NCBI GenBank assembly: GCA_005406025.1
Contig: BGZK01000743.1
Coordinates: 232,576 to 296,575 of the forward strand
Reading direction: 5' to 3'
Origin: Eumeta japonica
Taxonomy: Eukaryota > Arthropoda > Insecta > Lepidoptera > Psychidae
Length of the DNA: 64,000 nucleotides
Position numbers and translations under genes: made by a program. Below are positions 2,521 through 47,331 of this stretch, in pieces; position 1 is the first letter of the stretch; each line of letters opens with the position of its first letter. A model generated the notes under the pieces. It made no database searches, was not told the DNA's origin, and was given only the letters and a program-made list of their open reading frames with translations.

Positions 2521-2527
2521 CACGTAA

Positions 2528-2990: not shown

Positions 2991-3009
2991 TTCAAAATGA
3001 AGCCATAAT

Positions 3010-4247: not shown

Positions 4248-5182
4248 ACAACTAACTGATACAGTGTAGGGGATACGCAGAGCAGACGTCATACGGAATT
4301 GCTTACCGGCTATTATTGAAAGTTTAAATAAATTGCCATAACAAAAAACTTACTCGCGGACGAGTGAAATGTAGGAAAAACGCGGGTCAGTGCAGGACTA
4401 ATATATTTATATACAAAGAATACAATTTACGGCAGTGAAACAATAATAGACAACAGTGCCACTCAATGATCGCGGCTACAGCGCCCAGACACTTAGAACG
4501 AGCGTCAACGAAAACCAGGTGAACCCTAAACTGACTATAGCTCAGGATGTCCGGGCGCATATAGTTTATAAAGAAGAAAGAGATCAGACTTAATAGTTTG
4601 ATTAAATCAGGTGTTAAAGTAAAATTTTGTAAGCAATGGTCTGATTTTGATATAGAATACAATTTATATGTAGCCACCCACCGGTCTCCCGTTATATAAA
4701 ATTATTTCAGCCATGAGGTAAAGTGAACCTCATTGTGCTAAATAAACGTTTTGTACTTGTGAATAAATAAAATGCTTAAATAACATTTGTATCGGGACTT
4801 AGACTTTCAAAATCTAATATGAAAATACAAATACTAATGTTAGTGTATAAAAAAAAATTGGTTTCATAATTCTACAGTAATGAAGTGCACAAAATAAATA
4901 TTTTCATTCTATGTAGTTATAAAGCAAAGTGTAAATGCTTGAGATTTTTTGTTATAAATGTCATTACTTTTTCAGTAATGACATAACAAATTAATTTTTA
5001 CTCTAAATATAGTACATATATTTCTATTGAGTTAAAAGAAATACTAATTGGTAGAGCGCATTATTTCAATACTGCAGGTCGTGTAATATTGAAATTGTGT
5101 CAAATTGTTTTAGGAACTGTCATATTCCTGTCACTAAAAATACCCTCGATACGAACTGATACATCTTCTTACTTTTGCTCAG
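4248..5182. other. Non-coding DNA upstream of the first receptor exon
   Basis: AT-rich, no supported exon. The frame of exon A1 stays open leftward to about 4987 but has no ATG. It encodes a hydrophobic run (IVLGTVIFLSL) at about 5104-5136 that looks like a signal peptide. With no start codon, and a strong splice acceptor at 5182, I treat this as intron. Confidence 0.4.
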
Positions 5183-5332
5183 GAGTAAACCATATGTGGT
5201 TGTCGGGGTCCGTGAACACAATCAACCATCTAACGGAGTTCTGCTATGACGAGGGTGTCGAGTTCTATGTCACGTGCCAATCCTACCACGAAGCTTTCAG
5301 AGCCACTCAAGAAGTAATGTGGCGCCTTTACG
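5183..5332 (+). CDS. Exon A1: first half of Ig-like domain 1
   Basis: Acceptor after a long pyrimidine run (cttcttacttttgctcag) at 5182; donor g|gtaagt with GT at 5333. Both ends are phase 1. The 49 full codons begin VNHMWLSGSVNT and end VMWRLY. Cys is at residues 20 and 31 and Trp at 46. Residue 31 (YVTC) would be the B-strand Cys and MWRLY the C strand. It aligns without gaps with A2 (20988) and A3 (31683) up to the Cys. I chose this start over an earlier AG at 5077 because its pyrimidine tract is far better and its length and phase match the sister exons. Confidence 0.75.
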
Positions 5333-8300
5333 GTAAGTGGCAATTCCGAATTGTTCTGTAAAGCTGACGTCAGATAAAAGCAGACTAACCTTACGCCACA
5401 AAACATTAAGTAATAGTCCGACATCATAAAAGGTTGTCCTTTCACCTACACATCTATATTTATTAAGGACTTGTGCATTTGGAGCATATTTTTGGGGAAA
5501 TACACACACATACACGCGTTTATCTGTGTTTGCGTGGGTGCTTGCACGAGTGTGTGCGTGCGTGCATGCTCGCGTGTGTGTTTGTGTGTGTGTTCAATGT
5601 TTTGAACACAAAATCCATATCAGTTTATTGAACTCACGTATTTTTTGCTAAAATAGCTGATTTACTGATTTAGGCCCTTCCTGCACTGCAAAATAAAATT
5701 CGCGTGAAAATAAATCCGTGCCGCCTCGCGTTCAATTTGCATTAAGTCATAGATTTTTTCCTCAAACATTTTTAACCGCCAGTGTTTAGCAAACGCTCTC
5801 TGTAATGTTGACGACAAGCTTGAAATTCTTAAGACTTTTTTAGAAGTTCCGCTGACATTTTCTTAATAAGAACATTGTTAGTTAGTTTTCTTCGTTAGTA
5901 TTGAATAAAGTAAAATATTACATTTGACGAAAATAAAATAATAAACTATATACTTAAATTTGAAAGCTTACAATTTTTTTCCCGGAAACTAAGCGTTTCC
6001 GTCAAAGTTTATAGAACAAAAGTTGTTCAGTTTGACCACCTGTAGATCTGACCAGGTAGATCAAATTCCAAAAAATTTGTACCACTCTGTATGTTTATGT
6101 ATATGTACGTGTACAACATGATTTCAATTATATAAGAAAATAGAAAACACTTTGTACCATATCAGCAATGGAGTGGATTTTGCATATTTTTTTACTACTT
6201 TTGACTTATATAATTTTGAAAACTTGGTCATATTATGTACGTACTACTAACTGGCAGCAGCGAGTGGTGCATTTTAATGTAGCCGCAGCCCGCGCCGCTA
6301 TTCGCTCGTTGCGAGTTATTCTGTCATTCCGCGCGTGGACAAGGTATTGCTGTCTTTTTTTTAAAAACCACAAGGTTGCACCTGCACTCGCGCATCGGAA
6401 CGGCGACGGCCGTGACCTTAGTGTGTCGATGATTCGCGTTGACCCGTCTTGTAGGTTTGCTATTTAATACTTACATCGCGCGTTTTAATAATAGCGTACC
6501 GATACTCAAACATCCGATACATGGAAATGGTGCGAACACTTGCAATATGCAATGATAACGTTTCAGAATCAGCGCGTGTCTATCGTAAACGGTGCAGAAT
6601 AAGTATAAATTGGAACATTTGTTGGACGATTTGAGGGATGCTTGCTAGTAGCCACTGAAGAGTTTCACTGCCTATCTTCAGCTTCCATTGCCCGTTTCCG
6701 CGATTTCGGAAAATTTAGAACTCCGACTCCGTAGATCGTGGCGTAAATATTATTAATGTGGAACCACAAAAGACATTTTGAGATTATTCGCGAAAAATTC
6801 CGAAATTAGCAGCTGCCAAGTGGCTACAGTTTTTGGTTGTTGTCAAGCTTAAACGATTGAAAGTGATTTGCGTAAACGTGCTCGATTATGAATTCAACAA
6901 TGCGAAAAGCATTTTTAAAGTAGACTGCAGTATGTTTAAATACTCAGGTAAGCAGTGAAATATTCATTTCTCATTATGAATTTAAGATTACACATTATTT
7001 GGTACGTTTGTTACGTAACATTACCTATTAACTTACAGAACTAAGTAAGTATTGGGATAATTAAAACAAGCATTTATAAATGTTATAATTTGTATAGCGG
7101 ATTATAATTATAACTATAACCTTGCTAATGAGAGTGGCTCGCAAGAATGGGTGCTGTTAGCACATGGGGTGGGTGACACGTCTTTGTACAAAAATGGGAC
7201 AAGTCAATATAATTTATAACTTAAATATAACATTATGAATTCTATTATTTCACCAAATAATTTAAAAATATGTTTCCTAGATTGGGTGTTTAGGTCTTAC
7301 ATAGGCAGTATAATAAAAATTACGTTGTATATATAGTCTATATATCCCGCTAAAGCTGTTGCGTTTGCACAGACTAAAGACTAAAGACTAACGAAAGCAA
7401 GACTTTCTGCAGGAGTTGTGGCGTTCATTTTCGGAATTAGAATTCGTACTATCAATATTAGACCAAATGCCTGGAAGATACAGTTTTATTCCTACATCAC
7501 GACTAACAGCTATTTTATTAAGCAAATTGATATCACATTTGTTATATGTTTTAAGGACGATCAAACAATTCCTACATTCATTTAGTACAAATAACCGCAT
7601 ATCTATTATAGATACATAATTTCCATTGTCTTTCCAACACTAAACCGAATTACATCTGGACTTATACTTACTTATCCAAGTAAAAAGAATCGCAAAAAAG
7701 ACTGCTACAGAGAGTTAGTTAAATATTTGCTTGAAATATTTTCTATTTTCACGATTTCATTACAAAAAGAATAACACTCGTGCTTTAAGTTACCGCCATC
7801 GGGTCGGGAGTGTTTAAACCAGGTATGGGCAACCTTTTACTTGTTGTGACCCAAACTTTAGTGTGCAAATACCTTCGCGGTCCGGTTTCAAAAAGTAGTG
7901 CATTTTTAGGTTATGTTTTAAAATAGTGTTCATAATTTTTAGCCATAGATATAAGAAATTAAATTTTTCAAAATGTCTCGTGGGCGGGATCAAATTTTAC
8001 AGCGGACCGGTGGTTGCCCACATATGGTTCAAACTTTTTCCTTTTCATGGAACGTAGACGCAGATAAGAAGGCCGTGCGCGACGAAGTTGGGATCACCGA
8101 GGGGTATCAACCATTGCCAAAGGAGCCCGCCCACCGTTCACAAGTAACAATGAGTCTCACCAAGAAACATGACGATTGGTTGTTAAAATGCTACGGCTAC
8201 GATTCGATTGACGACGGCTTTTTTATCATTGTTTATGAATCTACAGCAGTCCGGTTCCGCATGAGGCGAGACGACGTATGCCAAGGTCAGTCACATATTT

Positions 8301-11300
8301 ATGTACATAATATTCGCTTTTATAAATATCAGTGTGACGTTGATTGCTGTGATAACAGACCCAATCTTTCAGTAGTAAAAAGTAATAAGCGCCAAATTGG
8401 TCTTTGCATGAGTCATAGTTTGTGCAATAGTACGGCATTATTTAGCACTGCTAAATAATGCCGTATTGATAATGCCGTATAAATAATGCCGTATGCCGTT
8501 TGGGTGGACCTTCTAGTCAAAATTACTCTAACGATATTTAAAAAGTTTCACTCAAATTAGAATTTCATAAAATTGGTATAGCCATGCACTAGTCTCGTAT
8601 TCATCACAAGCTCCGGTCTCATGCCCTCCGCCCGTGAGCGGAAAATTGGGTGTCAGGAGTCACGGCGCGGCGTAACGGCGCGAGGAGGTTAATTATTGAC
8701 GATTACTCATAAATTGTTAGCATTTTATGCATTCATCCCAAGCTCCGGCCTCATGCCCTCCGCCCGTGTGCGGTAAATCGGGTGTCAGGAGTCACGGCGC
8801 GGCGTAACGGCGCGGAGGTTAATTATTGACGATTACTCATAAATTGTTACCATTTTATGCATTCATCCCAAGCTCCGGCCTCATGCCCTCCGCCCGTGTG
8901 CGGTAAATCGGTGTCAGGAACGGCGCGCGTAACGGCGCGAGGAGGTTAATTATTGACGATTACTCATAAATTGTTACCATTTGCATTCATCCCAAGCTCC
9001 GGCCTCATGCCCCACCGCCCGTATGCGGTAAATCGGGTGTCAGGAGTCACGGCGCGCGTAACGGCGCGAGGAGGTTAATTATTGACGATTACTCATAAAT
9101 TGTTACCATTTTATGCATTCATCCCAAGCTCCGGCCTCATGCCCTCCGCCCGTGTGCGGTAAATCAGGTGTCAGAGTCACGGCGCGCGTAACGGCGCGAG
9201 GAGGTTAATTATTGACGATTACTCATAAATTGTTACCATTTTATGCATTCATCCCAAGCTCCGGCCTCATGCCCTCCGCCCGTGTGCGGTAAATCGGGTG
9301 TCAGGAGTCACGGCGCGCGTAACGGCGCGAGGAGGTTAATTATTGACGATTACTCATAAATTGTTACCATTTTATGCATTCATCCCAAGCTCCGGCCTCA
9401 TGCCCTCCGCCCGTGTGCGGTAAATCGGGTGTAAGGAGTCACGGCGCGGCGTAACGGCGCGAGGAGGATAATTATTGACGATTACTCATAAATTGTTACC
9501 ATTTTATGCATTCATCCCAAGCTCCGGCCTCATGCCCACCGCTCGTGTGCGGTAAATCGGGTGTCAGGAGTCACGGCGCGGCGTAACGGCGCGAGGAGGT
9601 TAATTATTGACGATTACTCATAAATTGTTACCATTTTATGCATTCATCCCAAGCTCCGGCCTCATGCCCTCCGCCCGTGTGCGGTAAATCGGGTGTCAGG
9701 AGTCACGGCGCGGCGTAACGGCGCGAGGAGGATAATTATTGACGATTACTCATAAATTGTTACCATTTCATGCATTCATCCCAAGCTCCGGCCTCATGCC
9801 CTCCGCCCGTGTGCGGTAAATCGGGTGTCAGGAGTCACGGCGCGGCGTAACGGCGCGAGGAGGATAATTATTGACGATTACTCATAAATTGTTACCATTT
9901 CATGCATTCATCCCAAGCTCCGGCCTCATGCCCTCCGCCCGTGTGCGGTAAATCGGGTGTCAGGAGTCACGGCGCGGCGTAACGGCGCGAGGAGGTTAAT
10001 TATTGACGATTACTCATAAATTGTTACCATTTTATGCATTCATCCCAAGCTCCGGCCTCATGCCCTCCGCCCGTGTACGGTAAATCGGGTGTCAGGAGTC
10101 ACGGCGCGGCGTAACGGCGCGAGGAGGTTAATTATTGACGATTACTCATAAATTGTTACCATTTTATGCATTCATCCCAAGCTCCGGCCTCATGCCCTCC
10201 GCCCGTGTGCGGTAAATCGGGTGTCAGGAGTCACGGCGCGGCGTAACGGCGCGAGGAGGATAATTATTGACGATTACTCATAAATTGTTACCATTTTATG
10301 CATTCATCCCAAGCTCCGGCCTCATGCCCTCCGCCCGTGTACGGTAAATCGGGTGTCAGGAGTCACGGCGCGGCGTAACGGCGCGAGGAGGATAATTATT
10401 GACGATTACTCATAAATTGTTACCGTTTTATGCATTCATCCCAAGCTCCGGCCTCATGCCCTCCGCCCGTGTACGGTAAATCGGGTGTCAGGAGTCACGG
10501 CGCGGCGTAACGGCGCGAGGAGGATAATTATTGACGATTACTCATAAATTGTTACCATTTTATGCATTCATCCCAAGCTCCGGCCTCATGCCCACCGCCC
10601 GTATGCGGTAAATCGGGTGTCAGGAGTCACGGCGCGGCGTAACGGCGCGAGGATAATTAATGACGATTACTCATAAATTGTTACCGTTTTATGCATTCAT
10701 CCCAAGCTCCGGCCTCATGCCCTCCGCCCGTATACGGTAAATCGGGTGTCAGAGTCACGGCGCGGCGTAACGGCGCGAGGAGGATAATTATTGACGATTA
10801 CTCATAAATTGTTACCATTTTATGCATTCATCCCAAGCTCCGGCCTCATGCCCACCGCCCGTATGCGGTAAATCGGGTATCAGGAGTCACGGCGCGGCGT
10901 AACGGCGCGAGGAGGATAATTATTGACGATTACTCATAAATTGTTACCATTTTATGCATTCATCCCAAGCTCCGGCCTCATGCCCTCCGCCCGTGTACGG
11001 TAAATCGGGTGTCAGGAGTCACGGCGCGGCGTAACGGCGCGAGGAGGATAATTATTGATGATTACTCATAAATTGTTACCATTCATTACAGGGTCGATGA
11101 AAGTATATATACAAAAGTATGGTTTCTGTTTTTGGAAAGCGTTTGCGCAATACCTATTTTTAAAGTTGAAATACATTCCTGTCATCTCTCGGACAGAACA
11201 CGTTATAAGGCCTATAAGTACTTTGTTCAATTCTAAAAAATAATATAATCTTATGACGAATTGGGTTATATGCTAAATCCAGTCTTAAAATGCATATACC

Positions 11301-14300
11301 GATAGCGCGAAACATACCTACACGGTAAATGTTGACTCCATTTTTGATACATTTATATCTAAAACTCAAGCACACTTGACAATACAGTATTGTTTTCTAA
11401 AGCAAAAAAACCCAATAGTTCCCAATGCCCTATTATTTTGGACTTCCCTTCACTGCTGCAGTAAAAATAGTCGCCGTACACATATTTACATAACAAACAT
11501 TATTTAGAATAGAATGTTGTACTTTAGTCACTCTTTAAATATGGATTTGGCAAATATGAATAATAATGTTATTTCTGAACTTCAAATCCCACAACAGGTT
11601 TCATTTTCGTTAAGGGATATTTTATTTTGTATTTATTTTTATTTCCATGTTATAATTAGAAAAACTGAATTATCGAGCAACACTTCTGTGAATAATCTAG
11701 AATTTGTGGATTTTTTTTATTTTAATATTTATTATTAACATTATTTCTAACTCCATAAAATTCCACTAATAAAACACACACACACGTGTGTGTGGATGAG
11801 TGCGTGCGCGCGTGCGCTCGTTTTTGTGTAAGCGTGTGTGTCAGTGTTGGGGGAGGGATTAATATTCTACACAAAACACTTTTACATCTTTAACTCTCTA
11901 GTGTTGTTGTTAATATTTTCCAAAGACTTCTACGAAGATTTTCCTACACACAAATCTTTGGACTGATGACTTCACGAGACAAAGTGTATTCAGTCTTCAG
12001 TTTATAATATACGAACATGACAAAAATTGGTATTCGGTCAGAACATGTTAGTGGCTACTCTCTGTCAGTCTGTATATTTTTTTATAACTTAAAAGTAGTT
12101 TGACCGATCTCGATGAAAGCAAGTGTATATTCTGAACCGGTGATTACTCAAATATGGTTATCATTCGGTGTATATTCAGAACCGGTGATTACTCAAATAT
12201 GGTTATCATTCGGTGTATATTCAGAACTAGTGATTACTCAAATATGGTTATCATTCGGTGTATAGGTACTCAGAACCGGTGATTACTCAAATATGGTTAT
12301 CATTCGGTGTATATTCAGAATTGGTGATTACTCAAATATGGTTATCATTCGGTGTATATTCAGAACCGGTGATTACTCAAATATGGTTATCATTCGGTGT
12401 ATATTCAGAACCGGTGATTACTCAAATATGGTTATCATTCGGTGTATATTCAGAACTAGTGATTACTCAAATATGGTTATCATTCGGTGTATATTCAGAA
12501 CCGGTGATTACTCAAATATGGTTATCATTCGGTGGATATTCAGAACTGGTGATTACTCAAATATGGTTATCATTCAGTGTATATTCAGAACCGGTGATTA
12601 CTCAAATATGGTTATCATTCGGTGTATATTCAGAATCGGTGATTACTCAAATATGGTTATCATTCGGTGTATATTCAGAACCGGTGATTACTCAAATGAC
12701 AGGTTTTGTAATTCACATACACCGAATGATAACCATATTTATTTTATTTTTTTTATTAGTCATATCAATTTCTTTTTATGTAGTTGCGTGTGTGTATAAT
12801 TCAATTTTTGTCACAGTTATGGGATGTACGAGCTGTACATAATAACAAGTAGTGTTTAAAAAAATTCAGTTTAATGATAATGAAATTGTATGTGCGCTGT
12901 GCGGGATTGGGTTTGAAGGTATATAATTATTTTATCTAATCGCTACCTCACGGCCGCCGCGGATGCGTTCCGTTTCTCATAACTGTAGGTATCCGACTTT
13001 GCCTCGTAACAGCCTTAAAATCCCGGCCCTGTTGGGAGTTGTTACTTTCAACATCAGAGGTAGGTAAAGTGACCAACTTATTGAGAGCTTGACGAACGAT
13101 TCCTTTGGCTGTAGCGACATCGACAACTTTTGTTAAATTCGAATTCAAAATATCTTTTATTTCATAGATTACAAAATAACACATAAATGCGTCATAATTT
13201 TTGCGAATTTACACTTTACCGTTAGTTTGGAAGGCAGTTTTTCCTCAAGAAAAACGAGCAAGAAACTTAAGGTTAGCTCTTTTCTAATTTACTCATACAT
13301 AGCCAAAACAAATACAAATACATGAAATAGCCCGTTAAGAAGGCGAGCCGCTTATGCCCATGGATATTTGTCTTAGAAATATTCAGAAATTGTATAATAC
13401 TATTTTTTACTGAATGGTTGTTTAATAACACTCTTAAATTTATATGGGGGTAAATCTTGTATATCTACCGGAACCTTATTGAATAGGCGCACACAGAGCC
13501 CTCTGAATGAATTTGAGACTTTACTTAGTCGACTAACATATGTAATGAGTTTATTTTTATTTCTGGTATTGAGTTTATGTCCACTACTATTTCCTTTAAA
13601 CATTTCTAATTTTTTTTACATATAATAAGTTTTCATAGATACATTCGAATTTCCTTAAACTTATTTCTAAGAGATGCACGAGGTCCGAGCTTGTAAATCG
13701 CGCAAACGGTCCCCTTCTGCAGCACGAAAATTATATGAACATCCGCGGCGTTTCCCCAGAGCAAGATGCCATACGACATTAGGCTGTGGAAACAGCCAAA
13801 ATAAACCAATCCAGAAGTCTCGACGTCTGATAAATTTCTTATTTTTTTGGCTGCATAAGCGGCAGAGCTAAGCCTTTTCACCAACTTACTTATATGAGAA
13901 CCCCATTGAAGCCTGTTATCTAAATTATTCCAAGGAACACGGTAGCATTAACAAACTCCAATTCTTTGTTATGTACTAAAATAGTTCCGGATCCATGTCC
14001 TACATTTGGAAGTGAGAATATAATACATTTTATTTTCATTTCATTAAGAAGTAAATTATTTACAGTAAACAATTTCTCTACCATAGATATAAAGCATTGT
14101 TCACATCGTCATAAATGGGCTGTTATCTTTTAACTGTGAATAACAAAGATGTATCATCTGCAAACAGTACTACCTCATGAACATCCTTAACAAGGCTAGG
14201 TAAATGATTTATGTAGACTAAAAAAAGGAAAGGACAAAAATTTGATCCCTGTGGTACACCCATGTGGACTATACATGCAGACAATGTCATGCCATTGACA

Positions 14301-35300: not shown

Positions 35301-38300
35301 ACCTTCCAACACGAGAAAATTTCTTGCAGCAAAAGCCCAATCATCGTAATTCTCGCGTCCTTTAAGCTTTGGCACATTGACTATATAACTTCCCGACGAC
35401 ATTTTTAACACTTTTCACTAATTTACGATACAACTATTGTACTTTTCGATAAAATGCGTTACCTGGGCCCATAACCTAATAAAACACGGTAAATAGTTGC
35501 GGAAGGAATGAAGGTATTTTTATATATTATAAGTCACAATGACATTTTAACAAATGGTTTTACATATCTGTCACTAGATGTCGTTAGTATGTTCATATTC
35601 AATTATTTTGATATTATAAACTTATAATTTTAACAATAGTATGGTCTTATTGTTTTGTTCGCACTCGTAGGAGCAAGTAAATAAGGTCAAGTGGTAAGAA
35701 AGGGGCAGGCGGTAAGAAACCTCACAACTCGCCCAGCCCGCCCCGCCCACCCCCTCGCAAGCTCACCGCGCTTGCCACCCGCATCTCTTCCTGCTTACCG
35801 CTCTCACATCTTAGGGGGTGATATCATCCGCGGGTGCTTTATAACTACATATTTATTAGGATTTCAGTGGTTGATGCGCATTAAAATTACAGATCGATTT
35901 TTCATATTTTTATAATGATTTCTTTGACATAATTCTTTACTCTCATGTTCGTTTCAAAATAAATTGCACTTTATTTTTGGCCTTTCCAAGTAATTATATG
36001 ATTTATGTTATGAATGCGATTGAACATTGTTTAGTCGGTATAACTACAAAGCATCTACTCACACCGATCTGGCTGCCAGTAAAACCAACTTTTATGCAAT
36101 ATCTCGATAACTTATGCTCCAACTTTTATGCTCGATAACTTCAATTATGCAATATCAAATTGTATGTACAAACCAAAAAATCTTGAAAAATAATCTAACA
36201 ACATAGTGACAATTTTTTTATCATTTTGATATACGTCTAATAAAAAAATTCTGAAGAATTTTTTGTTATTGGTTGTGTGGTCACCTACGACGTATGTGTG
36301 AGATATTAAAGATAGTTCTAAAAAGCACTACGGCAAGTCCGTGGAAGTTGGGAGCTACAGATCGAACGCTGCATTGCGCACGTCATTGCCTCGCCACAGC
36401 ATTCTTCGCGCGCCGCTCCGAAGCCAAGGTACGACCGCCCGCCGAGGCATCCTTCGGCCGTCTGACGAATCAAGTCGATGGTAGGAATATTTAAACCACG
36501 ACGCGTGCAGGCGCTCTGCGATGCGCCCGGTGACGGGCGCCGCCGACGCGGATACAATTGAATACAATCGAAAAAATGAAAAACAATTAAAAAACGATTA
36601 TAAGAATATATATTATAAGAATAAATTTATTAAAAATATTACACACAATTCATATAGTTCCTAAATGTTTCACTAAAAGCAACCCAGCGTCCTTTCCCAC
36701 CATAAGTGGTGACATTGATTTTTTTAAATTCGACCAAAGATAATCTTTGTAGAGAATTTAATTTTTTTCAAAACCATTTCAAGGGTTTTTTTATTCAGTA
36801 TCCTTGATTGACTATGAACACAAAATAAGCAAAAAAAAACTTTTTTAATTTTGAAAATTCTTAATTTTGCGAGCGCTAACTCAAAAACTGAAATAGAGGC
36901 CTAAATAAATAGTTTAAACATAATTTTTTTTTTCGTGACTATTAACGAAATTTTGAGTAAGTTTTATTTAGCACAGTCTAACGTCCATACAAATGAAAAT
37001 TTATTGTGGCAAACGTATCAAAGCCTATCCAGGGAGCTGACTTCCTCAAGCACCATCAACACGTCGTAGACGTAAAAAATAAGAAATTGATAGACACCGT
37101 CACCAATATCAAAACTAACGGATACATTAAAACCTTGAATATACCTACAATACATAGCACCGATATCACAAAATAATATCACAGCATATTAGATGAATTT
37201 CCCGGAACTACGAGATTGACAGCTATGACACTCAAGAACAAAGAAGTCCAATATTTTATAGAAACAGAAGACCAACCTGTACACTGTCGAGCTCACCCGA
37301 TACCCCCACATGGATACAAAAAAGTCAGAAAGTAATTTTAAAACATGATGGAACAAGGACTTTGTAGACTAAGCAATAGCTTATGGTCATCGCCTCTTCA
37401 CGTCCTACCGAAAAAGAACGGAGACATACGAGTCTGCGGAGGCTACCTTCATTTAAACGCCATCACGAAAATCGACCGATATCCCATATTCTGCGTCAAA
37501 GACTTTAGATACCAACTCTCTGGAAATACGACATTTTCTACGCTAGACCCTCAACCAGGCCTATCAGCAAGTAAACGTCCATGGAGAGGACATAGAAAAG
37601 ATAGCCATAACAACACCAATGGGATTATTCAAATTTCACCGGATGTGTCGGGAGCTGAAAAACGCAGGCCAGACATTCCAACGGTACATACACCAAGTAC
37701 TATTTAAACTAAACTTCGTTTTTTTCATTCATCGACAACGTTCTGATTGCATCAGAAAGCGAAAAGCGACATTTTACACACCTACAAACAGTACTCGGAA
37801 AATTTTAAGAGAACGGAATCACGATCGATCCTGCTAGATGCAATCTCGGCCAGCCGGAAATAAAAGTCCTTGGATATATCGTATCAAAAGAAGGTATCAA
37901 ACTGCCAGCAGAAAAGATTAAACTCATCATGAACTATCCTAAGCCCCAGACCAACGAAGAACTCCGACGCTTCCTCGGAATATTGATTTCTACCGTGTGC
38001 ATATACCTAACGCTGCGTCCATACAAACACCGCTCAACGCATACCTATATAATGTCAAGAAAGACAAAACTAAAATTCAATGGACCGAAGAATCATCGCA
38101 AGCGTTCGAAGCGTGTAAAACAAGCATAAGCGACGCTGTCTTACTCGTTCACGCGTCACATCGAGCTCCGTATGCATTATTCTACGACACTTCAGTCAAA
38201 TCAGCCGGCGCAGTACTACAACAATACATAAACAGAAAAAGGCAACCACTTGGACATTTGTCAGAAAATTCTCAGACTCACAATGTAAATATTCAACATA

Positions 38301-41300: not shown

Positions 41301-44300
41301 TATCTTATAGGGAGTAGAAGAAATTTTAATTCAGGTTTTATAAAACGTATTGTACAGTGACAATCCTGCTTTTACCAAATTACTAGTCTCTTGCCTGAAA
41401 GCGATTGAAACAATATATTTTGCGTCTTGGTCCAATACAATCACCCACATAATTTTTTTCTCTTTTACGCGTAATAGATTACCATGGCTGAAAGTTGGTA
41501 GTCAAAAATAGACCTATTTTCTATGATTTATTTGAATGAAATAAAAGTCGACTTACCTACATTTTTCTGATTTTACGATCCTTTTCGGTAATATCTAAAT
41601 ATATAGGCAGGCGTATTGTAACTCTTAGACGAATGGACGAAATAAGCACTCGTCAAAACATAAAGATAATGATAATATGCTCAACGACCAAATAGACGTT
41701 TATAAATCGCCATTATTGGACGCTTGCCTGTAACTACTTGTTAATGTTGGTGATGGTTAGTCTGTGACATTTGACAAGCATGTCTATCGGTGGTGATCTG
41801 TGGCTGTCTTAAGAATGTTTTCGTCGCTCTTTGACTATTGCATGACAGCGGCCTGCCTAACGAGGTTGTGTTGGTTGTTTTAACGCTCCTTGCACCCTGG
41901 TGGATGTGACTGTCGGCAATTTCCTGAGGATGTGCCTTGTTGGCATGAAACGTACGTAGAATTAAACAATTTAACGGTTGGCGGAATTAGATAATTATAA
42001 AAATAAATAACACTTGCTTAGGTGTTCGATATCTGTCAATCCTCTGGAATCAATATTCATTCATTTGGATAGAGATTCGTAGTGGAGAGGCAGATTCGAG
42101 GGTCAGTGGTGGGTTGCATGCTGCATGTTAATGCATGTTGCAGGCAAGCGTCTACATTCTAAAGTATTTCACCGGCATCTGTTTTTTGTATTAACCTTGA
42201 CAAAGGAAAAACTGTTCAGAATAGGAATGAAGTAATGAAGCACCATTCATCGATGAATGTGTTACTTTACACTTGAAAAACTCAATGACAAACAAGAGTA
42301 AAGCGATTCTAAATCCGAATCTAAGATTATTAAAAGTATTGTATCTGAGATGACTTTGCAACATCACATTTTTCTTTCCTCTAATACACAGAGATGTCGT
42401 ATTTTAGAAACTATAAGCTCTCTCACGCCGATGGACTCGCCACTTCTCAGACCTCTTTGTTTGCATTATCATTTGTATGTACACCACAAATACACGTTAA
42501 CTGTTTAAACAGATAAAAGCTGTTGGGATCAAACGTTGGTTCTTTTGGAAAAGGGGTCCTTCCCAATAAATAAGTTCGATTCGACATTTAATATAACGCT
42601 GACAGAAGAACATCACCTCTGGACTCTACAGTGCATGCACAGAGAGCTTTCCAGCCACATCAAAACAATTTATCCAATAGAAATACTGATGATTCGTCTG
42701 TTATTGAAAGAAGAATGGAAAATGCAAGGTTTGTCATTTTGTTTTATTATCTATTTATTTAAAAAAAAAAATATTTTAAAATAGCATTTTGATTCAAGTT
42801 GCAAGACCTAAAATCATAAGCAGACATTAGAGCATATGCTTAAATTGTATACTGAATATATCTTAAGTATTGGTAACTCAATATACTTGGTGGCTTTTTG
42901 AATCAATGCATATTGATATAATATTGAGATTATTGGCTTCGGTAAGAAACTGGACGGTTAGTTATTTGGAATATACATATAAGTTTCAATTTAAATTGGT
43001 CAGGTTAACCTATAATCGAAATACTTGATTGCGAGGATATGAATAAGAGAGTGAAATTAATAATGAATAATATTAACAATGAATTAAACCACTAAACATA
43101 AGCCATTCGGAGACGTACTCAAACACACAATAAAAAATATCATAATCGGTCAAGCCGTTTACGAGGAACTTGGTAACTAACACACATACAGAAGAATATA
43201 TGTATAAAAATAGACATAAATATGAAATATACAACACTGAGTCATAGTAATATCTTATTCTTTTAAGGAGAAAACTTTACCTCATTTATCTTTGCCTATA
43301 ACCGACTCCAAAAACAACAAATTATGTAATTAGATTTTAAGGGTCATACTTATTTCTTTCATTTTTGCAAAAGTTTTTGTTTGCTATATGCATTGTTTAA
43401 ACATCATAATATTGCTGCAAAATGTGCTAGTACTTGATGTAGAATTGATTTTCCAAAATTTACGCAATGACAATATTGTGGGTCTAAAGTTGAATTCTAA
43501 ACTAATTATTTTATAATACGAATCAGGATACTTTGCTTAGGAAAGAGAGAGAAGCGAGTCGAGAGCCCCGGTACCCGAAACGGGGATGTCTCTAAAGGAC
43601 TCTCCGATGGCCTTCTCAACTTGTATGTCCTTATTCAAGGTTTCATCATTATTGATAAGTTAAAAGTCTAAAACCCGGCCCTTCATTCTCTAAGCCTCGT
43701 TCTTTTTGACGCACCAAGTCTCTTTCATTATATTCTTCATATCGATTTCTTTTTTTTTTTGTTATTGGTATATTTGATATTAGCCGTGGCGTATATATTT
43801 CGAAAAATTTGAATCATTTCGTACATATTTTTTAAAGTTCTTTTTAATATTATAAGATATTTCGCTATAAAGCTCATATAGCATTAACTTCCAGACCGCA
43901 AGTGGAAAAACGGGGTCATTGGAATTTCAAGTGTAGCTGCTGTGGCGTTCGTGTGCCTCGTGACATACCTCAGCATTAAATACTTGCACAAGTTGAAACA
44001 AAGAGAAAAGGTATTTTATTCCTTTCTTACAAAACTTTTAAACTAACACATATATATTAACATATATCGAATAAAATTTTTCTATTAAATATTTTGCAAT
44101 ACCAAATGAAAAATAAGGGTCATTCCATTCTGGCTGCCGCTCCCCATTGTTGACTAAAAATCTTTTCTAGACTTACAACTCCCAGTTCGACTATATATAG
44201 ATATATATTGTAATATATTTAGAATTTTCCAGTTTTTAACGTATGTTAAATACTTTAAATATATCGTTATCTTTCAATTTATAGGTTTATTTTATTTCAC

Positions 44301-47259
44301 TCCGCAGAAAATATAGGGAACAAACTTTTCATGGTCTTAAAATGGTTCAATTTTGCTAAATGTGTGCCTATAATATATGACGATCTCTCTCCGTTTCTCA
44401 TGAGTTCCATCATCAGAACTAGATTTTGATAAAAATGGGACCAATGTGAAAGTTTGTCCTTTCAAATAAAGAAAGTTTTATTCGGCGTATAAATGATGAA
44501 GTTTTGAGGTAAAAAACTTTACAAAATTTCAACCAAAACGACAACCTCTTTTTTACATAAAAAGCGGTTAATTATTTATATGACAAGATGGTCTAAACTG
44601 TCAAACGCTTTACTGTATATAGACTACATCAATTTAATCACCCCTGCTCATACTATACATACCCATAAACTATTTACCTAAATTCAATTTTTAAATTTTA
44701 TACCTTTAATATAAAGTTATTATTTAATTTAATTGTGTTTCATATAGTATATAAAGTAGGTATAATCTATTAAATAAGTATATCTGTAAATAAATAACTA
44801 AGAAAAAAATTTTTAAATAAGAAAATTATTTACTTAAAATTTTTATTTTATTTTAAAACGCATTTTTCATTATTATTGTCAGTTCTCAATAAATAATAAT
44901 ACTTAATAATGAAGTGCAGGCGCGAGACGCCGTCACCTCCATTTCTTTCAGAATTGTCTATTTCATTTTGTATTGATTTCCTTTTTAACATTTTAGAATG
45001 TTCAGAGTTAATTCAGTGAAGAAATATTAATTATATGTCATTTCCTTGACGATTGGTCGATAGAAAGTTCGATGTTACAATATAAAAATATGATACGATT
45101 TCAGTAGATGGGTGAAGACTGGGCACTTTGGTCGTAAAATAAACTAGCGTTGTAGTTTATTGTTTAACCAAAATGACTTTGAAACAGTGACATAAATAAT
45201 AATTGTATTGATATGTTCAACTTTATAATAAACTGAAACATAAGCATATATTGTTTTTCTAGTGAAACATATTATTTGTAGGGTAATTCATATATATTTT
45301 AGTAAATATGTGATTTAGCCAATGAATTATCCATTTGCTAAGTCACATATCCTTGGCCGCTAATACATACAAGGTTACGTCGAAATAAAAGACGTCCGCT
45401 GTCAAAAATCATTTTACTCGTCGTCCCTAATATAGGCTCATACTTTTGACAATTTTTGTGCTATTATATTGCTATTTAATTAAAGTTTTTTTTTTACTGA
45501 AAGTAAAAAAAAAATCAAAAACAATCATGTATTACAAAATAGTGACAAAGTATTTTTTTGCATTTTTATAGCACTTTCCACGATACCAAAACGCTTATCC
45601 GACGTGCTATAACAATCGCTACTCCTTTAAAACCAATAAAATTTTGTTCATAAACAAAACATTTCACAGTAATATGCAGTAATGTGCAGTCATATCCTTA
45701 AAATACAGTTTTAGGTGTCATTTCGAATCGAATATACCTATCACATATATTTTTGGGAGCTTTGAACAATTTTGAACTTGTCATACTATAGTCATTTGTA
45801 TAAATTGTGTTTAAAAAATCGTTAACTGGTCAATAAGTATACATTTTTGGAAACCTCCATTAGTCATTTTATTATATATGCATAAATATATACCAACTAT
45901 TACGCGTGGTTCAATATCCCTGTTTTTCATATTTGAAGCTATTTTATTTAATATTGTGCTGAGTAAAAATCTTGCACTTAATGCAGTCGAAATTCAACTA
46001 AATCCATGCAATAATTGCAATAAGTAGCATAATAAAGAAATGTAATGTACGAAAAAGATAACGGACGTGCTATCTGTCCTTGTCTGGCCGGTCTGCGACG
46101 ACGGAGATAAAGCACATTCAAACGCCCACTTTGTCTTACTATCAAGTGAAAAATTACCTTTCTCTAGAAAAAAATGTTTCACTTTCTAAACGATGAAATA
46201 ATAAAAAAACATTTTATTTATTTATATTGTACTTTTTATTATTATTTTTTCGAAGAGCAAACACAATACACATTACAATAATTCGCCTAGAACACACATT
46301 GATAAATTAATTTATATGGAAAAAAAGTGTGTGTGTATTAGTGTACACACGTAAGAAGTGAAACTTCTTTATGACATCATTTTTCGATAAATGATTTACT
46401 ATTTACAACTTCACAGAAATTGGTTGAATAAAGCTAAATTAGATAAAGTTTATGCAAAAGGCTTTTATTATCATAGACATGGATACAAAAATAAAACAAT
46501 CATTTCACCTTTCTGCTACTAAGATTATAGCATTTCATTAATTATAATAGAATTATTACTATTATTGTTATCGTTATTATATATTTTTGTAATTAATGGT
46601 TTAACTCACTGATATTTACAATCAAAAACTAAGGTTAACCTGAAATAACCTTAAAAAAAATGTAACTACTCAAAACGAGCCGCAAAATACATTGGAGACA
46701 TTTACCAATCCCTACTCCGCTGGAGAAAGTATACTTCGAATCACGCGTGGTAGGGATAAGAAAAAGATGGCGCGTAACGGAAAAATGTGACGCGTAACGA
46801 AAAAATGTTGCACTAAATTTTTTTCCAACCCCGATAAAGAAGTTTCACTTCAAAAAGGGTTCATGCTTTTTGTAGCTCAGACTGACATTATATTGATTTC
46901 TGTTGTTCCAGACTAAAGTAAATTCTTATGAAAGCAAGGGCAGTGCCAGTAATAAATCTTCTTTAGATGAAGAACCGGTGTACGAGGAAGTTGATTCAGA
47001 GCAAGGTACACTAAATCGAAAGAATGACCAAGTGATATATGAACGTATGACATCCGGATCAAAAACAAGAGCAAAACAAGCTGTACTAGACGAGGACGTG
47101 GAGATGACTAAAACACAGAAAATGAGCCCCTACGCAGATGGTCAGAGCGATTCAAATTATTCAAATCAAATTAAAAATGAAATAATTGAAAAAGAAACCA
47201 AAACGAAAAAACTTGGAATCAAAGTATCTCGACATGAGACCAGATATACTAATAAATAA
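5183..47259 (+). CDS. Ig-like single-pass receptor gene, eight exons reconstructed (5' end missing)
   Basis: Join of 5183-5332, 8064-8285, 20988-21143, 29819-30028, 31683-31835, 42513-42728, 43895-44010 and 46912-47259, about 523 residues plus an unfound signal-peptide exon. Seen directly: every junction has AG/GT and compatible phase (all ectodomain junctions phase 1, transmembrane to tail phase 0); three A-B exon pairs align with each other; one hydrophobic span is followed by basic residues; the tail has tyrosine motifs and a stop, with AATAAA 67 bases on. Known of the family: paired Cys about 60 apart with a Trp 15-17 after the first is the core of an Ig domain. Inference: a plasma-membrane receptor or adhesion protein whose tail binds SH2-domain proteins. 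Three Ig domains plus one membrane span also fits insect adhesion proteins such as Fasciclin 3, but I see no clear sequence match. Introns reach about 12.7 kb and are mostly transposons. Confidence 0.75.
5501..5600. repeat. TG/CA-rich simple repeat
   Basis: A run of ACACAC followed by interrupted GTGTGCGTGCGTGC. Alternating purine-pyrimidine tract in intron 1 of the receptor gene. Confidence 0.8.
5601..7817. other. Intron 1 DNA, no supported gene
   Basis: Intronic sequence between exons A1 and B1. A plus-strand ATG frame at 6168-6467 begins with a hydrophobic stretch but continues into unrelated Arg-rich sequence with no donor of the right phase. A triple ACTAAAG repeat occurs near 7372-7392. 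Nothing else is recognised. Confidence 0.4.
7817..7965. mobile_element. hAT-type transposon terminus (isolated)
   Basis: The sequence caggtatgggcaacctttt at about 7820 followed by TTGTGACCCAA and CGCGGTCCGG is like the terminal inverted repeat of Charlie/ZBED-type hAT elements (CAGGGGTGGGCAACCTTTT and relatives). No transposase or second end is seen nearby, so it is a solo terminus or a deleted copy. It ends about 100 bases before exon B1. Confidence 0.5.
8064..8285 (+). CDS. Exon B1: second half of Ig-like domain 1
   Basis: Acceptor gcag|at at 8063 after a pyrimidine-rich stretch; donor g|gtcagt with GT at 8286; phase 1 at both ends. The 73 full codons begin KKAVRDEV and end RRDDVCQ. The key segment is VTMSLTKKHDDWLLKCYGYD, with Cys at residue 42 as the F-strand Cys, then a G-strand-like stretch. 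It starts with the same 'ataa' as B2 and B3, giving an Asp-Lys at every A-B joint. The frame is open upstream to an ATG at 7973, but that part falls in hAT-like DNA and has no counterpart in B2 or B3. A nearby alternative acceptor at 8057 has the same phase and would add two residues. Confidence 0.7.
8431..8498. repeat. Perfect 17-bp hairpin followed by short direct repeats
   Basis: Arms 8431-8447 and 8449-8465 are exact reverse complements around one base. The unit AATAATGCCGTAT then recurs to about 8498. It lies in intron 2, 145 bases after exon B1. Confidence 0.85.
8592..11083. repeat. 132-bp satellite array, about 19 copies
   Basis: Units start (at 'taattattga') at 8690, 8820, 8947, 9076, 9206, 9337, 9469, 9601, 9733, 9865, 9997, 10129, 10261, 10393, 10525, 10654, 10785, 10917 and 11049 (partial). 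Spacing is 132 in most and 127-131 in deleted ones. Each unit joins an AT-rich half to a CpG-rich half containing CCGCCCGTGTGCGG (a short hairpin) and the doubled word ACGGCGCG. A partial, more diverged copy lies at 8592-8689. Copies are very alike, so the array is young or homogenised. It fills part of intron 2 of the receptor gene. Confidence 0.95.
11084..11770. other. Intron 2 DNA, no supported gene
   Basis: AT-rich sequence with only short frames (62-74 codons) and no family match. Confidence 0.4.
11771..11850. repeat. CA/TG-rich simple repeat
   Basis: ACACACACACACGTGTGTGTG followed by GCGTGCGCGCGTGCG and GTGTGTGTC. Purine-pyrimidine alternating, partly self-complementary tract. Confidence 0.85.
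12119..12741. repeat. 45-bp minisatellite (about 13 copies) capped by an inverted unit
   Basis: The word GAACCGGTGATTACTCAAAT recurs every 45 bases from 12134 to about 12697, with single-base variants (ACTAG, TTGG or TCGG at one site, and a 3-base insert near 12266). Directly after the array, about 12714-12741 holds part of the unit in reverse complement (ACACCGAATGATAACCAT). Because 45 is a multiple of 3 and the unit lacks stops in two frames, two long overlapping open frames appear. I regard these as by-products, not genes. The layout suggests a transposon end with expanded subterminal repeats. Confidence 0.9.
12948..13136 (-). other. Unassigned minus-strand open segment
   Basis: Reads as a polar, proline-, serine- and arginine-containing peptide (RDFKAVTRQSRIPTVMRNGT near its end) abutting the 3' end of the jockey-like LINE. 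It looks like a transposon ORF scrap, but I do not recognise the family. Confidence 0.25.
13137..15240 (-). mobile_element. Jockey/CR1-like non-LTR retrotransposon, 5'-truncated, copy 1
   Basis: Minus-strand pieces in order: a region before the polymerase (15029-14724, FETFFTDIPV); reverse transcriptase with GVPQGSNFCPFLFLVYINHLP and the intact catalytic FADDTSLLF (14326-14123); a C-terminal thumb or tail with YGILLWGNAADV (13884-13633); and a terminal basic stretch (13603-13400). Frames are broken between pieces. The 3' end at about 13137 has a GAATTTGAAT-type tail. The polymerase N-terminus and endonuclease are missing, so it is a dead partial copy. Its 3' region recurs at 30.95 and 55.38 kb, and a 5'-ward piece at 43.6 kb. 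Confidence 0.85.
15241..15780. other. Unassigned DNA between two retroelements
   Basis: No clear coding signal. It may contain the 3' untranslated part or LTR of the adjoining BEL/Pao element, but no matching partner LTR was seen. Confidence 0.3.
15780..18965 (-). mobile_element. BEL/Pao LTR retrotransposon, degraded
   Basis: Read right to left on the minus strand: a Gag zinc knuckle at 18720-18855 (CTICEQNHFIYKCPKFEHMP, a CX2CX4HX4C pattern); polymerase at about 17640-17540 with LPHHVIRD and VVFDGSAKTTSGKS; the Pao post-RT block IYDPLGLLCPCAIKTKIILQ (16944-16657); and integrase with KIVHLELVSDVSTEAF and SRHGKPHTIYCDNGTNF, which carries a catalytic Asp (16044-15823). The order gag, pol, integrase is normal, but frames are broken repeatedly. 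No flanking LTR pair could be matched by eye. Confidence 0.85.
18966..20987. other. Intron 2 DNA with a TG-rich tract
   Basis: No gene supported. A GTGTGCGTGCGTTTGTG tract lies at about 19860-19920 and AT-rich dyads at 20110-20165. Frames at 19364-19561, 19447-19767 and 19727-20047 have no family match. Confidence 0.4.
20988..21143 (+). CDS. Exon A2: first half of Ig-like domain 2
   Basis: Acceptor gtttctcttgcag|ta ends at 20987; donor g|gtgagt with GT at 21144; phase 1 at both ends. The 51 full codons begin PGKAYLTGSINTTRPH and end RVWWRTD. Cys is at residues 28 and 31, and Trp at 47 and 48. NTT is a potential N-glycosylation site. The block LTGSINTT..TDYWYRIGDE aligns with LSGSVNTI..TEFCYDEGVE of A1 and ISGTITTT..HRYYAGDT of A3. 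This is the clearest splice context of the three A exons. Confidence 0.8.
21144..22700. other. Intron 3 DNA, no supported gene
   Basis: AT-rich. A very good-looking acceptor (tacttctgtctttactgcag, ending at about 21966) is followed by stops in all three frames within 45 bases, so it does not open a coding exon. The last part, about 22500-22700, is probably the 5' end of the hAT relic. Confidence 0.4.
22701..23743 (+). pseudogene. GTF2IRD2/ZBED-like hAT transposase relic
   Basis: An ATG at 22701 opens MTSGGKKRKV. After two stops comes KWTEEFFFILHNGKPIYVLC then NIKRHYSTKD and LTGQIRKDKIQNL, the BED-like N-terminus of the GTF2IRD2/SCAND3-type hAT family common in insect genomes. Later frames (23045-23383 and 23399-23743) give MALDESTELSDTAQL, with a catalytic-region Asp, and EVRWLSKGKILKRFYELK, both typical blocks of the family. 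The C-terminal dimerisation domain is absent. Stops and frameshifts make it non-functional. Confidence 0.8.
23744..24539. other. Unassigned DNA; possible LINE 5' UTR at the right
   Basis: No coding signal. The GC-richer stretch from about 24420 leads directly into the R1-like gag and is probably its 5' untranslated region. Confidence 0.35.
25169..25953 (+). mobile_element. Short TIR element carrying a THAP-domain exon
   Basis: The ends AACAATAGGGT (25169-25179) and ACCCTATTGTT (25943-25953) are exact inverted repeats, and the LINE gag reading resumes just outside. Inside, an ATG at 25445 starts a THAP zinc-finger: YHYCLVTNC, then after a 1-nt frame break VPNDIEMRTVW and YLCEDHF, followed at 25630 by a consensus donor (aat|gtaagt). 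THAP domains are the DNA-binding part of P-element-type transposases and of host proteins. At 785 bp there is no catalytic domain, so it is non-autonomous. A target duplication is unclear (GGAAA occurs on both sides). Confidence 0.65.
27505..28121 (+). mobile_element. 5'-truncated R1-like LINE tail inserted with a 19-bp target duplication
   Basis: The 19 bases actgatcctctcgaggttg occur at 27486-27504 and again at 28122-28140. Removing one copy with the DNA between restores the reading from the host LINE's ALILSRL to its IRVRQAAW block. The inserted piece encodes an R1-like C-terminus: CETSVCFCGMADEDM (27695 on) and LVEFARAWHRLRGRLEEESR, ending at 27916, then a GC-rich 3' UTR without poly(A). 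Confidence 0.75.
29633..29818. other. Host DNA between LINE poly(A) and exon B2
   Basis: Short intronic remnant containing the polypyrimidine region and acceptor (ctttattttacag) of exon B2. Confidence 0.6.
29819..30028 (+). CDS. Exon B2: second half of Ig-like domain 2
   Basis: Found by searching for a partner to exon A2; it has no start codon and is easily missed. Acceptor ttttacag|at at 29818; donor g|gttggt with GT at 30029; phase 1 at both ends. The 69 codons are fully open and begin KIKHFDYIFNST, with LQWYHNSSLLKCWYGE (Cys at residue 39) and ILMTVRLLLDTTWNQ at the end. The last part is close to exon B3 (ILMIRLLLKEEWKMQ). It has two potential N-glycosylation sites, NST and NSS. Its order, phase, length and shared 'ataa' start support it as the missing half of domain 2. 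Confidence 0.75.
30029..30944. other. Intron 4 DNA, no supported gene
   Basis: AT-rich. The 113-codon frame that begins at 30782 runs into LINE sequence and has no domain match. Confidence 0.4.
30945..31592 (-). mobile_element. Jockey-like LINE 3' end, copy 2
   Basis: Strongly similar along its length to 13137-13740 (shared gcgaatttacactttaccg, gccgcttatgcccatgga and gagatgcacgaggtccgag-type words), in the same orientation, with the 3' tail at 30945 (attcaaattcaaa). 5'-truncated at about 31590, leaving only the C-terminal coding tail. It ends about 90 bases before the acceptor of exon A3. Confidence 0.85.
31683..31835 (+). CDS. Exon A3: first half of Ig-like domain 3
   Basis: Acceptor tttttttccatatccag|cg ends at 31682; donor g|gtatgt with GT at 31836; phase 1 at both ends. 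The 50 full codons begin STYTGISGTITTTAKY and end QIYWSIV. Cys is at residue 31 (HLVC) and Trp at 47. It aligns with A1 and A2 through the GT/GS motif, the Tyr-rich stretch and the Cys. Upstream the frame is open into jockey-like LINE DNA, which is not part of the exon. Confidence 0.78.
31836..32259. other. Intron 5 DNA between exon A3 and the copia element
   Basis: No gene seen. A short frame continuing from A3 past the donor is intron read-through. ATAGT at 32255-32259 is the left target duplication of the copia element. Confidence 0.5.
32260..32418 (-). repeat. Copia 3' LTR
   Basis: 159 bp, matches 35477-35635 base for base by eye. Preceded by ATAGT. Confidence 0.93.
32475..34132 (-). pseudogene. 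Copia integrase and polymerase start, joined to RNase H end by deletion
   Basis: The 489-codon frame (34078-32609) holds the integrase core: HSDLCGPM, FVDDASRMAFVY with a catalytic Asp, LRTDNGGEF with the second Asp, TPEQNGLCERFNRT with the Glu. Then follow the spacer with VFGSPAMMHVP, and polymerase up to TFxE-like ETYAPVLRYSTLRLL, HLDVVTAFLNG and KAIYGLKQSARAW. The YVDD-containing half is absent. About 20 bases on, the reading becomes the last part of copia RNase H (ASEMPADIFTKSLTSAKHN), which ends at about 32490. One deletion of roughly 1-1.3 kb explains this. Confidence 0.88.
34099..34900 (-). pseudogene. Copia Gag zinc knuckle, protease and pre-integrase, frame-broken
   Basis: Minus-strand frames 34867-34502 and 34440-34099. 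The first has CYKCKKTGHYKNQC (the single CCHC knuckle) and WYIDSGASAHMTS, the copia protease with its D-S/T-G-A site. The second has LLSVSQL and VVQWHRRLGHVN (GAG_pre-integrase domain, the His pair of the zinc site). The pieces are in different frames, and each break lies close to a run of A (TCAAAATC, ACAAAGTAAA, ACAAAAGC), so 1-nt indels or consensus errors are likely. Confidence 0.85.
34836..35411 (-). pseudogene. Copia Gag N-terminal domain
   Basis: 191 codons from ATG at 35411, beginning MLKMSSGSYIVNVPKLKG and including NYDDWAFAARNFL, which is the start of copia-type Gag (UBN2/DUF4219 area). It also has LWKKLQMLFDDSG and ETAQRLKGTGFEINEEWIGS and LLAGLPEKF, all usual Gag blocks. It ends at a stop just after a frame break into the zinc-knuckle segment. 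Opposite-strand open frames here are shadows. Confidence 0.88.
35462..35476 (-). other. Copia primer-binding site
   Basis: Directly abuts the 5' LTR. The minus strand reads GGTTATGGGCCCAGG, as in Drosophila copia, where an internal part of initiator tRNA-Met primes minus-strand synthesis. Confidence 0.75.
35477..35635 (-). repeat. Copia 5' LTR
   Basis: 159 bp, identical by eye to 32260-32418. Followed by the right copy of ATAGT. Confidence 0.93.
35641..36480. other. Intron 5 DNA, no supported gene
   Basis: A C-rich stretch near 35720-35810, otherwise AT-rich. The GC-rich part from about 36330 leads into the gypsy 5' LTR and may belong to it. Confidence 0.35.
36490..39965 (+). mobile_element. 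Ty3/gypsy-type retrotransposon, old and gag-less
   Basis: Shared but diverged segments at about 36540-36720 and 39740-39965 (acaattgaatacaa, attacac.caatt, gtttca.t.aaagcaa, ccagcgtcctttt) look like decayed LTRs. Between them come the end of protease, polymerase, RNase H and integrase in plus orientation from about 37012. No Gag is seen between 36720 and 37010. LTR divergence and many frame breaks indicate an old insertion. No envelope-like gene was recognised. Confidence 0.75.
37012..39779 (+). pseudogene. Gypsy pol remnant: protease end, RT, RNase H, integrase
   Basis: Plus-strand pieces in several frames. QGADFLKHHQHVVDVKN at 37030 is the protease-RT linker. RT has SLWSSPLHVLPKKNGDIRVC (37345 on). 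The catalytic box reads FIDN rather than the usual Y-x-D-D. KVLGYIVSKEGI follows, then RNase H (ALFYDTSVKSAGAVLQQ) near 38165-38220. Integrase has its zinc region near 38750-38830, the core with TIITTDKGRQFD (a catalytic Asp) and TTRKVTV where P-x-N-G would be. The C-terminus (38 residues into 39417-39779) has VHKDLQACSHVFIR, typical of insect gypsy integrases. Stops, frameshifts and catalytic changes make it inactive. Confidence 0.8.
39966..40616. other. Intron 5 DNA, no supported gene
   Basis: AT-rich. The minus-strand open frame ending at 40500 continues past the donor of the candidate exon at 40617 and is not itself called. Confidence 0.35.
40617..40791 (-). CDS. Candidate cysteine-rich exon on the opposite strand (unrecognised)
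   Basis: On the minus strand an acceptor (aattatattag|g) is followed by 175 bases, open throughout, ending in a good donor (tatcag|gtgggt). The peptide holds AEFVKVACKLVIRRCLNGQC and QSCDCCPNLERSMSK, with six cysteines in 21 residues, then a Tyr/Ile-rich end. Acceptor phase 2, donor phase 0. I do not recognise the family. It lies inside intron 5 of the receptor gene, antiparallel to it, so it would be a nested gene or a transposon exon. A second minus-strand open segment (41152-40913, EWCTINSVDIQKNILAGLKT) upstream could be related but lacks clear splice sites. Confidence 0.3.
40913..41152 (-). other. Unassigned minus-strand open segment
   Basis: 79 codons with balanced composition (WLEYLNTWDETSEGRV) unlike the AT-rich surroundings. 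No domain recognised. It may be a transposon or nested-gene exon, read before the cysteine-rich segment at 40617-40791. Confidence 0.2.
41640..42160 (+). mobile_element. Penelope-like element 3' end, copy 1
   Basis: Shares long near-identical stretches with 53930-54435 (tttaaatcgccattattgga, gtggtgatctgtggctg, ggcatgaaacgtacgtagaa, tcgagggtcag.g.tgggtt). The first 80 bases are the last codons of the GIY-YIG-bearing ORF (ending DACL-stop); the rest is 3' UTR, ending at gttgcaggcaagcgtct. It is truncated at its 5' end. Confidence 0.75.
42513..42728 (+). CDS. Exon B3: second half of Ig-like domain 3
   Basis: Acceptor gtttaaacag|at at 42512 (weak pyrimidine tract); donor g|gtttgt with GT at 42729; phase 1 at both ends. 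The 71 full codons begin KSCWDQTLVLLEKG. They contain FNITLTEEHHLWTLQCMHRE, with Cys at residue 40 and an NIT glycosylation site, and end EILMIRLLLKEEWKMQ. The C-terminal half is clearly homologous to B2. Joined to A3 it gives the membrane-proximal domain, and its phase-1 end fits the transmembrane exon (g + ac = Asp). Confidence 0.75.
42729..43539. other. Intron 6 DNA, no supported gene
   Basis: AT-rich sequence without recognisable features. Confidence 0.4.
43600..43815 (-). mobile_element. Jockey-like LINE internal fragment, copy 4
   Basis: Matches 14990-15180 (words gccttagcaacctctatgtc versus gccttctcaacttgtatgtc, attcaaggtttcatc, and cgttcttt.tgacgca.caagtc). It comes from a part of the element 5' of the 3' tails seen at 30.9 and 55.4 kb. 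It ends about 80 bases before the transmembrane exon. Confidence 0.7.
43895..44010 (+). CDS. Transmembrane exon of the Ig-like receptor
   Basis: Acceptor ttaacttccag|ac at 43894 (phase 1); donor aaaag|gtattt with GT at 44011 (phase 0). It encodes (D)RKWKN, a 22-residue hydrophobic span GVIGISSVAAVAF to LVTYLSI, then the basic stop-transfer segment KYLHKLKQREK. This gives a type I topology: Ig-like domains outside, basic side and tail in the cytosol. The first codon is completed by the final g of exon B3. Confidence 0.85.
44011..46911. other. Intron 7 DNA, no supported gene
   Basis: AT-rich; no further exon with phase 0 at both ends was convincing. At about 46750-46805 the words gcgcgtaacgg and gacgcgtaacg recur, similar to the CpG-rich half of the 132-bp satellite unit. 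A minus-strand frame at 45994-46182 has no family match. Confidence 0.4.
46912..47259 (+). CDS. Cytoplasmic tail exon with tyrosine signalling motifs and stop
   Basis: Acceptor gatttctgttgttccag at 46911, phase 0, then 115 codons and TAA at 47257-47259. The tail is hydrophilic and rich in Glu, Lys and Ser. Motifs seen: NSYES near the start; EEPVYEEVDSE; DQVIYERMTS, 19 residues after the first Tyr; SPYADG; SNYSNQ; RYTNK at the end. Established: YxxM binds PI3-kinase p85 SH2, YxN binds Grb2-type SH2, and paired YxxL/I with 6-12 residues between form an ITAM. Here the pair is YxxV and YxxM with 15 between, so it is ITAM-like at most. AATAAA follows at 47326. Confidence 0.85.
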   Translation, partial: TKVNSYESKGSASNKSSLDEEPVYEEVDSEQGTLNRKNDQVIYERMTSGSKTRAKQAVLDEDVEMTKTQKMSPYADGQSDSNYSNQIKNEIIEKETKTKKLGIKVSRHETRYTNK

Positions 47260-47325: not shown

Positions 47326-47331
47326 AATAAA
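47326..47331 (+). promoter_or_regulatory. Polyadenylation signal of the receptor gene
   Basis: AATAAA 67 bases after the stop codon. The short 3' UTR is plausible for an insect gene; alternative signals further on are possible. Confidence 0.55.

Follow-up and report, generated by a model that had tools for sequence, protein, structure and literature searches.

A putative insect receptor gene with at least three probable immunoglobulin-like domains, each divided between two phase-1 exons

Receptors with several immunoglobulin (Ig) domains, a transmembrane segment and a cytoplasmic tail are familiar from the NCAM, L1 and Dscam proteins, in which the Ig domains are spread over two exons with phase-1 borders. 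The gene described here, in a window of 64,000 nucleotides from Eumeta japonica (Lepidoptera, Psychidae; contig BGZK01000743.1), appears to follow the same plan. However, in contrast to the NCAM/L1/Dscam design, the inner introns of its three domains all agree in phase and in position, past the tryptophan of strand C, and Pfam matches neither an FN3 nor an Ig model in it. The oyster receptor CgIgIT2 has five Ig domains, a transmembrane segment and a classic ITAM (PMC11999971). Likened by description, this gene would be another invertebrate Ig receptor with tyrosine motifs in its tail, but it has at least three domains rather than five, and a strict ITAM is absent. The receptor design is known in kind. 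The suggestion of an earlier note on this DNA that an undescribed insect lineage may be involved is unproven. Such a gene was not found in the literature searched, and with most subscription papers outside the scope of that search its unpublished status is unproven as well. The available parts of PMC6439351, PMC8914287, PMC11999971 and PMC9218073 do not describe one, and no relative turned up in viral contigs, which were scanned with the profile of the repeats and separately with the tail and with exons B3 and A2.

The exons are of two types, A and B, and the gene model consists of the following features.

5183 to 5332, forward strand: exon A1, N-terminal half of Ig-like domain 1; open frame, phase 1 on both sides, splice sites ctcag/GA...ACG/gtaagt; the exon resembles A2 and A3
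8064 to 8285, forward strand: exon B1, C-terminal half of domain 1, bounded by gcag/AT...AAG/gtcagt
20988 to 21143, forward strand: exon A2, N-terminal half of domain 2, from its open frame, splice sites and repeat likeness
29819 to 30028, forward strand: exon B2, C-terminal half of domain 2, on the same three grounds
31683 to 31835, forward strand: exon A3, N-terminal half of domain 3, on the same three grounds
42513 to 42728, forward strand: exon B3, C-terminal half of domain 3, on the same three grounds
43895 to 44010, forward strand: transmembrane exon, VIGISSVAAVAFVCLVTYL followed by a run of basic residues; entered in phase 1 and left in phase 0
46912 to 47259, forward strand: cytoplasmic tail exon with the stop codon, carrying EEPVYEEVDSE and DQVIYERMTSG
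47326 to 47331, forward strand: poly(A) signal AATAAA, 67 bases 3' of the stop

The earlier note had placed an A-B-A-B-A-B series of six exons on the forward strand of this window, and all six are found there, within the coordinates it first gave and in that order. Their lengths (150, 222, 156, 210, 153 and 216 bp) are as claimed and are all divisible by three, and the introns that separate them measure 2731, 12702, 8675, 1654 and 10677 bases. Each exon has AG directly upstream and GT directly downstream, and each begins and ends in phase 1. Because every A exon has a final G and every B exon starts with ATAA, all three A-B joints encode Asp-Lys. The first cysteine is residue 31 in each of the three A exons. 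The frames and splice sites thus bear out the claimed series, the exon ends confirm the phase-1 introns and the Asp-Lys joints, and counting on the translations upholds the shared cysteine.

The repeats resemble one another within each type, and like the exon series and the reading frame this is observed directly. In leave-one-out searches, B1 and B2 ranked first among the remaining segments (E 0.024 and 0.026) and B3 second (E 0.078), while A1, A2 and A3 are alike both in the repeat comparison and on leave-one-out. A and B are not copies of one half-domain, an idea that was rejected when all nine A-B pairs proved to be without similarity. Each of the six half-domain exons is symmetrical (phase 1-1, length 3n), and with the uniform A and B ends any A exon could therefore join any later B exon in frame, with Asp-Lys kept. 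An insect-specific receptor that gains alternative ectodomains by mixing or skipping half-domains, as a modest parallel to Dscam diversity within an Ig lineage outside the Pfam models, would nevertheless be very improbable.

The transmembrane stretch, at 43915, was picked from five hydrophobic stretches in 42729-46911 by phase and splice sites. Its exon has the acceptor cttccag/ACC, in the phase left open by B3, and the donor AAG/gtattt, which gives an in-frame join to the tail. The hydrophobic segment, which like the tail is observed directly, thus lies in frame between ectodomain and tail, as in a type I transmembrane receptor. The spliced frame encodes 522 residues or 61.2 kDa, signal peptide excluded, with an ectodomain of 375 residues, the transmembrane segment and a tail of 128 (tail length and tyrosine count are taken from SIKYLH onward). 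A scan of the ectodomain found five N-glycosylation sequons, four in domain 2 and one in domain 3. Positions 1-5182 were scanned for a hydrophobic stretch with a start codon and a good phase-1 donor, and no signal-peptide exon came up, so the 5' end of the gene is probably outside the window; the signal peptide presumably lies upstream or was missed by the scan. Since A1 requires a preceding exon and the 5' end probably lies beyond the window, the domain count is a minimum.

In the full model, all eight exons are open, all seven introns are GT-AG and the phases are consistent. Third-position GC exceeds that of the flanks in all six A and B exons; in B2 and B3 the excess is weak. This is not what would be expected of a decayed gene in a transposon-rich stretch, a reading to which the long introns (up to 12.7 kb), the low third-position GC of the tail exon (0.28) and the retrotransposon pieces in the introns lend themselves, and which is most improbable. 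The mobile-element pieces listed here are all intronic and leave the exons untouched; their proteins would suit a moth or butterfly as host.

32609 to 35414, reverse strand: copia-type retrotransposon with gag, zinc knuckle, integrase and RVT_2 pieces, in the A3-B3 intron
16.7 to 17.1 kb: Pao-type piece, in an intron
14.1 to 14.5 kb: reverse-transcriptase piece, in an intron
38.7 to 39.4 kb: weak integrase pieces under the Pfam cut-off, in an intron

The introns also hold two tandem arrays. One, at 8599-11083 in the B1-A2 intron, is GC-rich and consists of 19 copies of a 132-bp unit with 96% matches (GC is 0.50 in the 2-kb bin 8001-10000), and the other, at 12123-12697, has 12.7 copies of a 45-bp unit and falls mostly within two overlapping open stretches of the forward strand. 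Further downstream, at 61683-63720 on the forward strand, several open stretches (e.g., KLEDVSQWTENNLNKILDEGDKLYQDSF) resemble exons of a second gene; five pieces of them gave no significant Pfam match. Rfam and tRNA scans found nothing.

The case for the Ig fold begins with geometry. In the Ig superfamily the two cysteines stand about 55-75 residues apart, with a tryptophan 10-17 residues past the first. The earlier note had described an Ig-like spacing (Cys-Cys about 60, Cys-Trp 15-17), and measurement in all three domains agrees with it: Cys-Cys distances are 61, 60 and 60 and Cys-Trp distances 15, 17 and 16 in domains 1 to 3, within the superfamily ranges each time. The strand-B pattern Y-x-x-G-[DV]-x-x-x-[VL]-x-C is likewise present in all three. 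The inner A/B intron falls about four residues past the tryptophan, which is where strand C would end, and exon A1 would encode strands A to C.

Database searches were less telling. Pfam found no Ig family at E up to 10 in the whole ectodomain or in any of the three domains, and single-sequence searches of the PDB with the ectodomain, domain 2 and domain 3 gave no significant match. Domain 3 alone matched no Ig chain there, and domain 2 alone matched titin (E 0.19) alongside non-Ig chains at E 0.11 and 0.12. When a profile of the three repeats was searched against all PDB chains (E up to 10), 44 of the 51 rows returned were Ig, at E 0.14-0.44, with 39 rows from PD-L1, 5 from IL1RAP and none from any other Ig protein. 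The top three rows were the non-Ig protein Spo0B (E 0.04-0.05), and four further rows were other proteins. The best Ig chain in the searches with the ectodomain, the profile and domain 2 reached E 0.13-0.19, which is below significance.

The repeats might instead have another fold, as extracellular domains whose Cys-Trp-Cys spacing mimics that of Ig domains. The want of a significant match in Pfam and the PDB would suit such a fold, as would the AlphaFold model of a B exon alone, an unspliced piece predicted at low confidence (pLDDT 48.8) as two helices and not as beta structure; that model does not support an Ig fold and is best regarded as uninformative. Another fold is, however, rather improbable, since the spacing and the strand-B and strand-C patterns recur in all three copies and the weak matches are mostly Ig proteins with the true profile, unlike with the reversed profile, which returned three rows with no Ig protein among them.

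A profile-profile comparison set the repeat profile against 12 Ig and 10 non-Ig domains, whose sequences were mostly typed in rather than copied from database records. The top six of the 22 were all Ig: the second domains of Beat Ia (18.4) and Fas3 (17.7), CD4 domain 1 (16.2), VCAM domain 1 (16.0), UNC5 Ig2 (14.0) and titin 3lcy (13.7). The best of the non-Ig domains scored 13.6, that is, 0.1 under titin 3lcy, and 5 of the 12 Ig domains scored 11.4 or less, within the non-Ig range. Moreover, a reversed query profile reached 16.3 (myoglobin) and a shuffled one 19.0 (barnase, the best of 264 shuffled comparisons). The difference between Ig and non-Ig scores had a p of 0.026 raw and 0.088 after shuffle correction. 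By judgement, the domains very probably have the Ig fold. Membership of the Ig superfamily is likely on the geometry and on weak, non-significant profile evidence, but the sequence does not establish it.

The two leading partners raise the question of descent. The gene could encode a receptor for neural adhesion or guidance whose repeats expanded from a single domain akin to the C2-type domains of Beat, Side or Fas3. Domain 2 of Beat Ia scored 18.4 against a shuffled mean of 10.1, and domain 2 of Fas3 scored 17.7 against 11.0 (both sequences typed in rather than copied from a record); both have L-x-C in strand F, like this gene, and that of Beat Ia also has its strand-B Y-x-x-G-D. On the other hand, these scores are not significant. 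The second domain of Beat Vc, copied from the PDB, scored 10.2 against a shuffled mean of 11.7 (z -0.6, background level), and the first domains of Beat and Fas3 are also at background. Pfam C2-set_2 gave no match, and in the alignment the EF loop of this gene is about three residues shorter than that of Beat Ia domain 2. The architecture differs too, as there are two domains in Beat proteins and many in Side proteins, and the first and second domains of Beat and Fas3 are unlike, whereas this gene has three like units; Fas3 itself was rejected on that ground. A relationship to this group is unlikely, though less so than another fold. The earlier note had regarded L-x-C in place of Y-x-C as an oddity, a point that does not hold by itself, for L-x-C also stands in strand F of Beat Vc domain 2 in an alignment of the PDB sequence.

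The tail holds seven tyrosines, including those of EEPVYEEVD and DQVIYERMT. YEEV suits binding by a Src-type SH2 domain, and YERM binding by that of PI3-kinase (p85). The strict ITAM pattern YxxL/I-x6-12-YxxL/I is absent, by which a true ITAM was rejected, and no PxxP motif or Pfam match was found in the tail. A relaxed two-tyrosine pattern occurs in 540 of 5000 shuffled tails, so that two spaced motifs alone mean little.

Another candidate for the identity of the gene is the lepidopteran haemocyte protein P77, a transmembrane adaptor, or a close relative. P77 is tyrosine-phosphorylated upon activation of plasmatocytes by growth-blocking peptide, and integrin phosphorylation and cell spreading follow. 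It is reportedly a 77 kDa protein whose C-terminal tail has an ITAM-like domain and SH2/SH3-binding motifs, an account attributed to Oda et al. in PNAS in 2010. That work is cited in PMC13116936, PMC9853324 and PMC4619603. Compared with armyworm P77 as so described, the product of this gene is likewise single-pass, with paired tail tyrosine motifs and a comparable mass, and the 61 kDa chain (signal peptide excluded) with its five ectodomain sequons is compatible with P77. However, P77 is not known to have Ig domains, the tail lacks both a strict ITAM, unlike the ITAM-like tail described for P77, and PxxP, and its relaxed pattern is unremarkable. Identity with P77 or a near relative is thus quite doubtful.

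The best explanation, held with moderate confidence, is that the gene encodes an insect-type cell-surface receptor of the immunoglobulin kind that crosses the membrane once (type I) and whose highly divergent Ig-like domains, at least three in number, derive from duplication of one two-exon unit. The symmetrical exons, transmembrane exon, tyrosine-bearing tail, stop and AATAAA make a multi-exon receptor gene well supported as far as the DNA can tell, and the gene is probably real. That part of the earlier reading of an Ig receptor stands; the Ig fold is likely. In such a receptor, with the membrane orientation predicted above, the Ig-like domains would probably recognise either a soluble ligand or a partner carried by another cell. 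Phosphorylation of the tail tyrosines would be the likely output; Src-type SH2 domains might dock at YEEV and the p85 SH2 domain at YERM, and the receptor would couple contact to a tyrosine-kinase pathway.

Should the gene turn out to encode P77 or a protein related to it, an adaptor already known from haemocyte signalling would gain an Ig ectodomain. If the preferred Ig reading is true, the receptor is one that the Pfam models used cannot see, and automatic annotation would therefore probably list it as uncharacterised. The half-domain exons, being so regular, would then suit tests of half-domain splicing and would offer a clean case for dating the duplication of Ig domains in insects.
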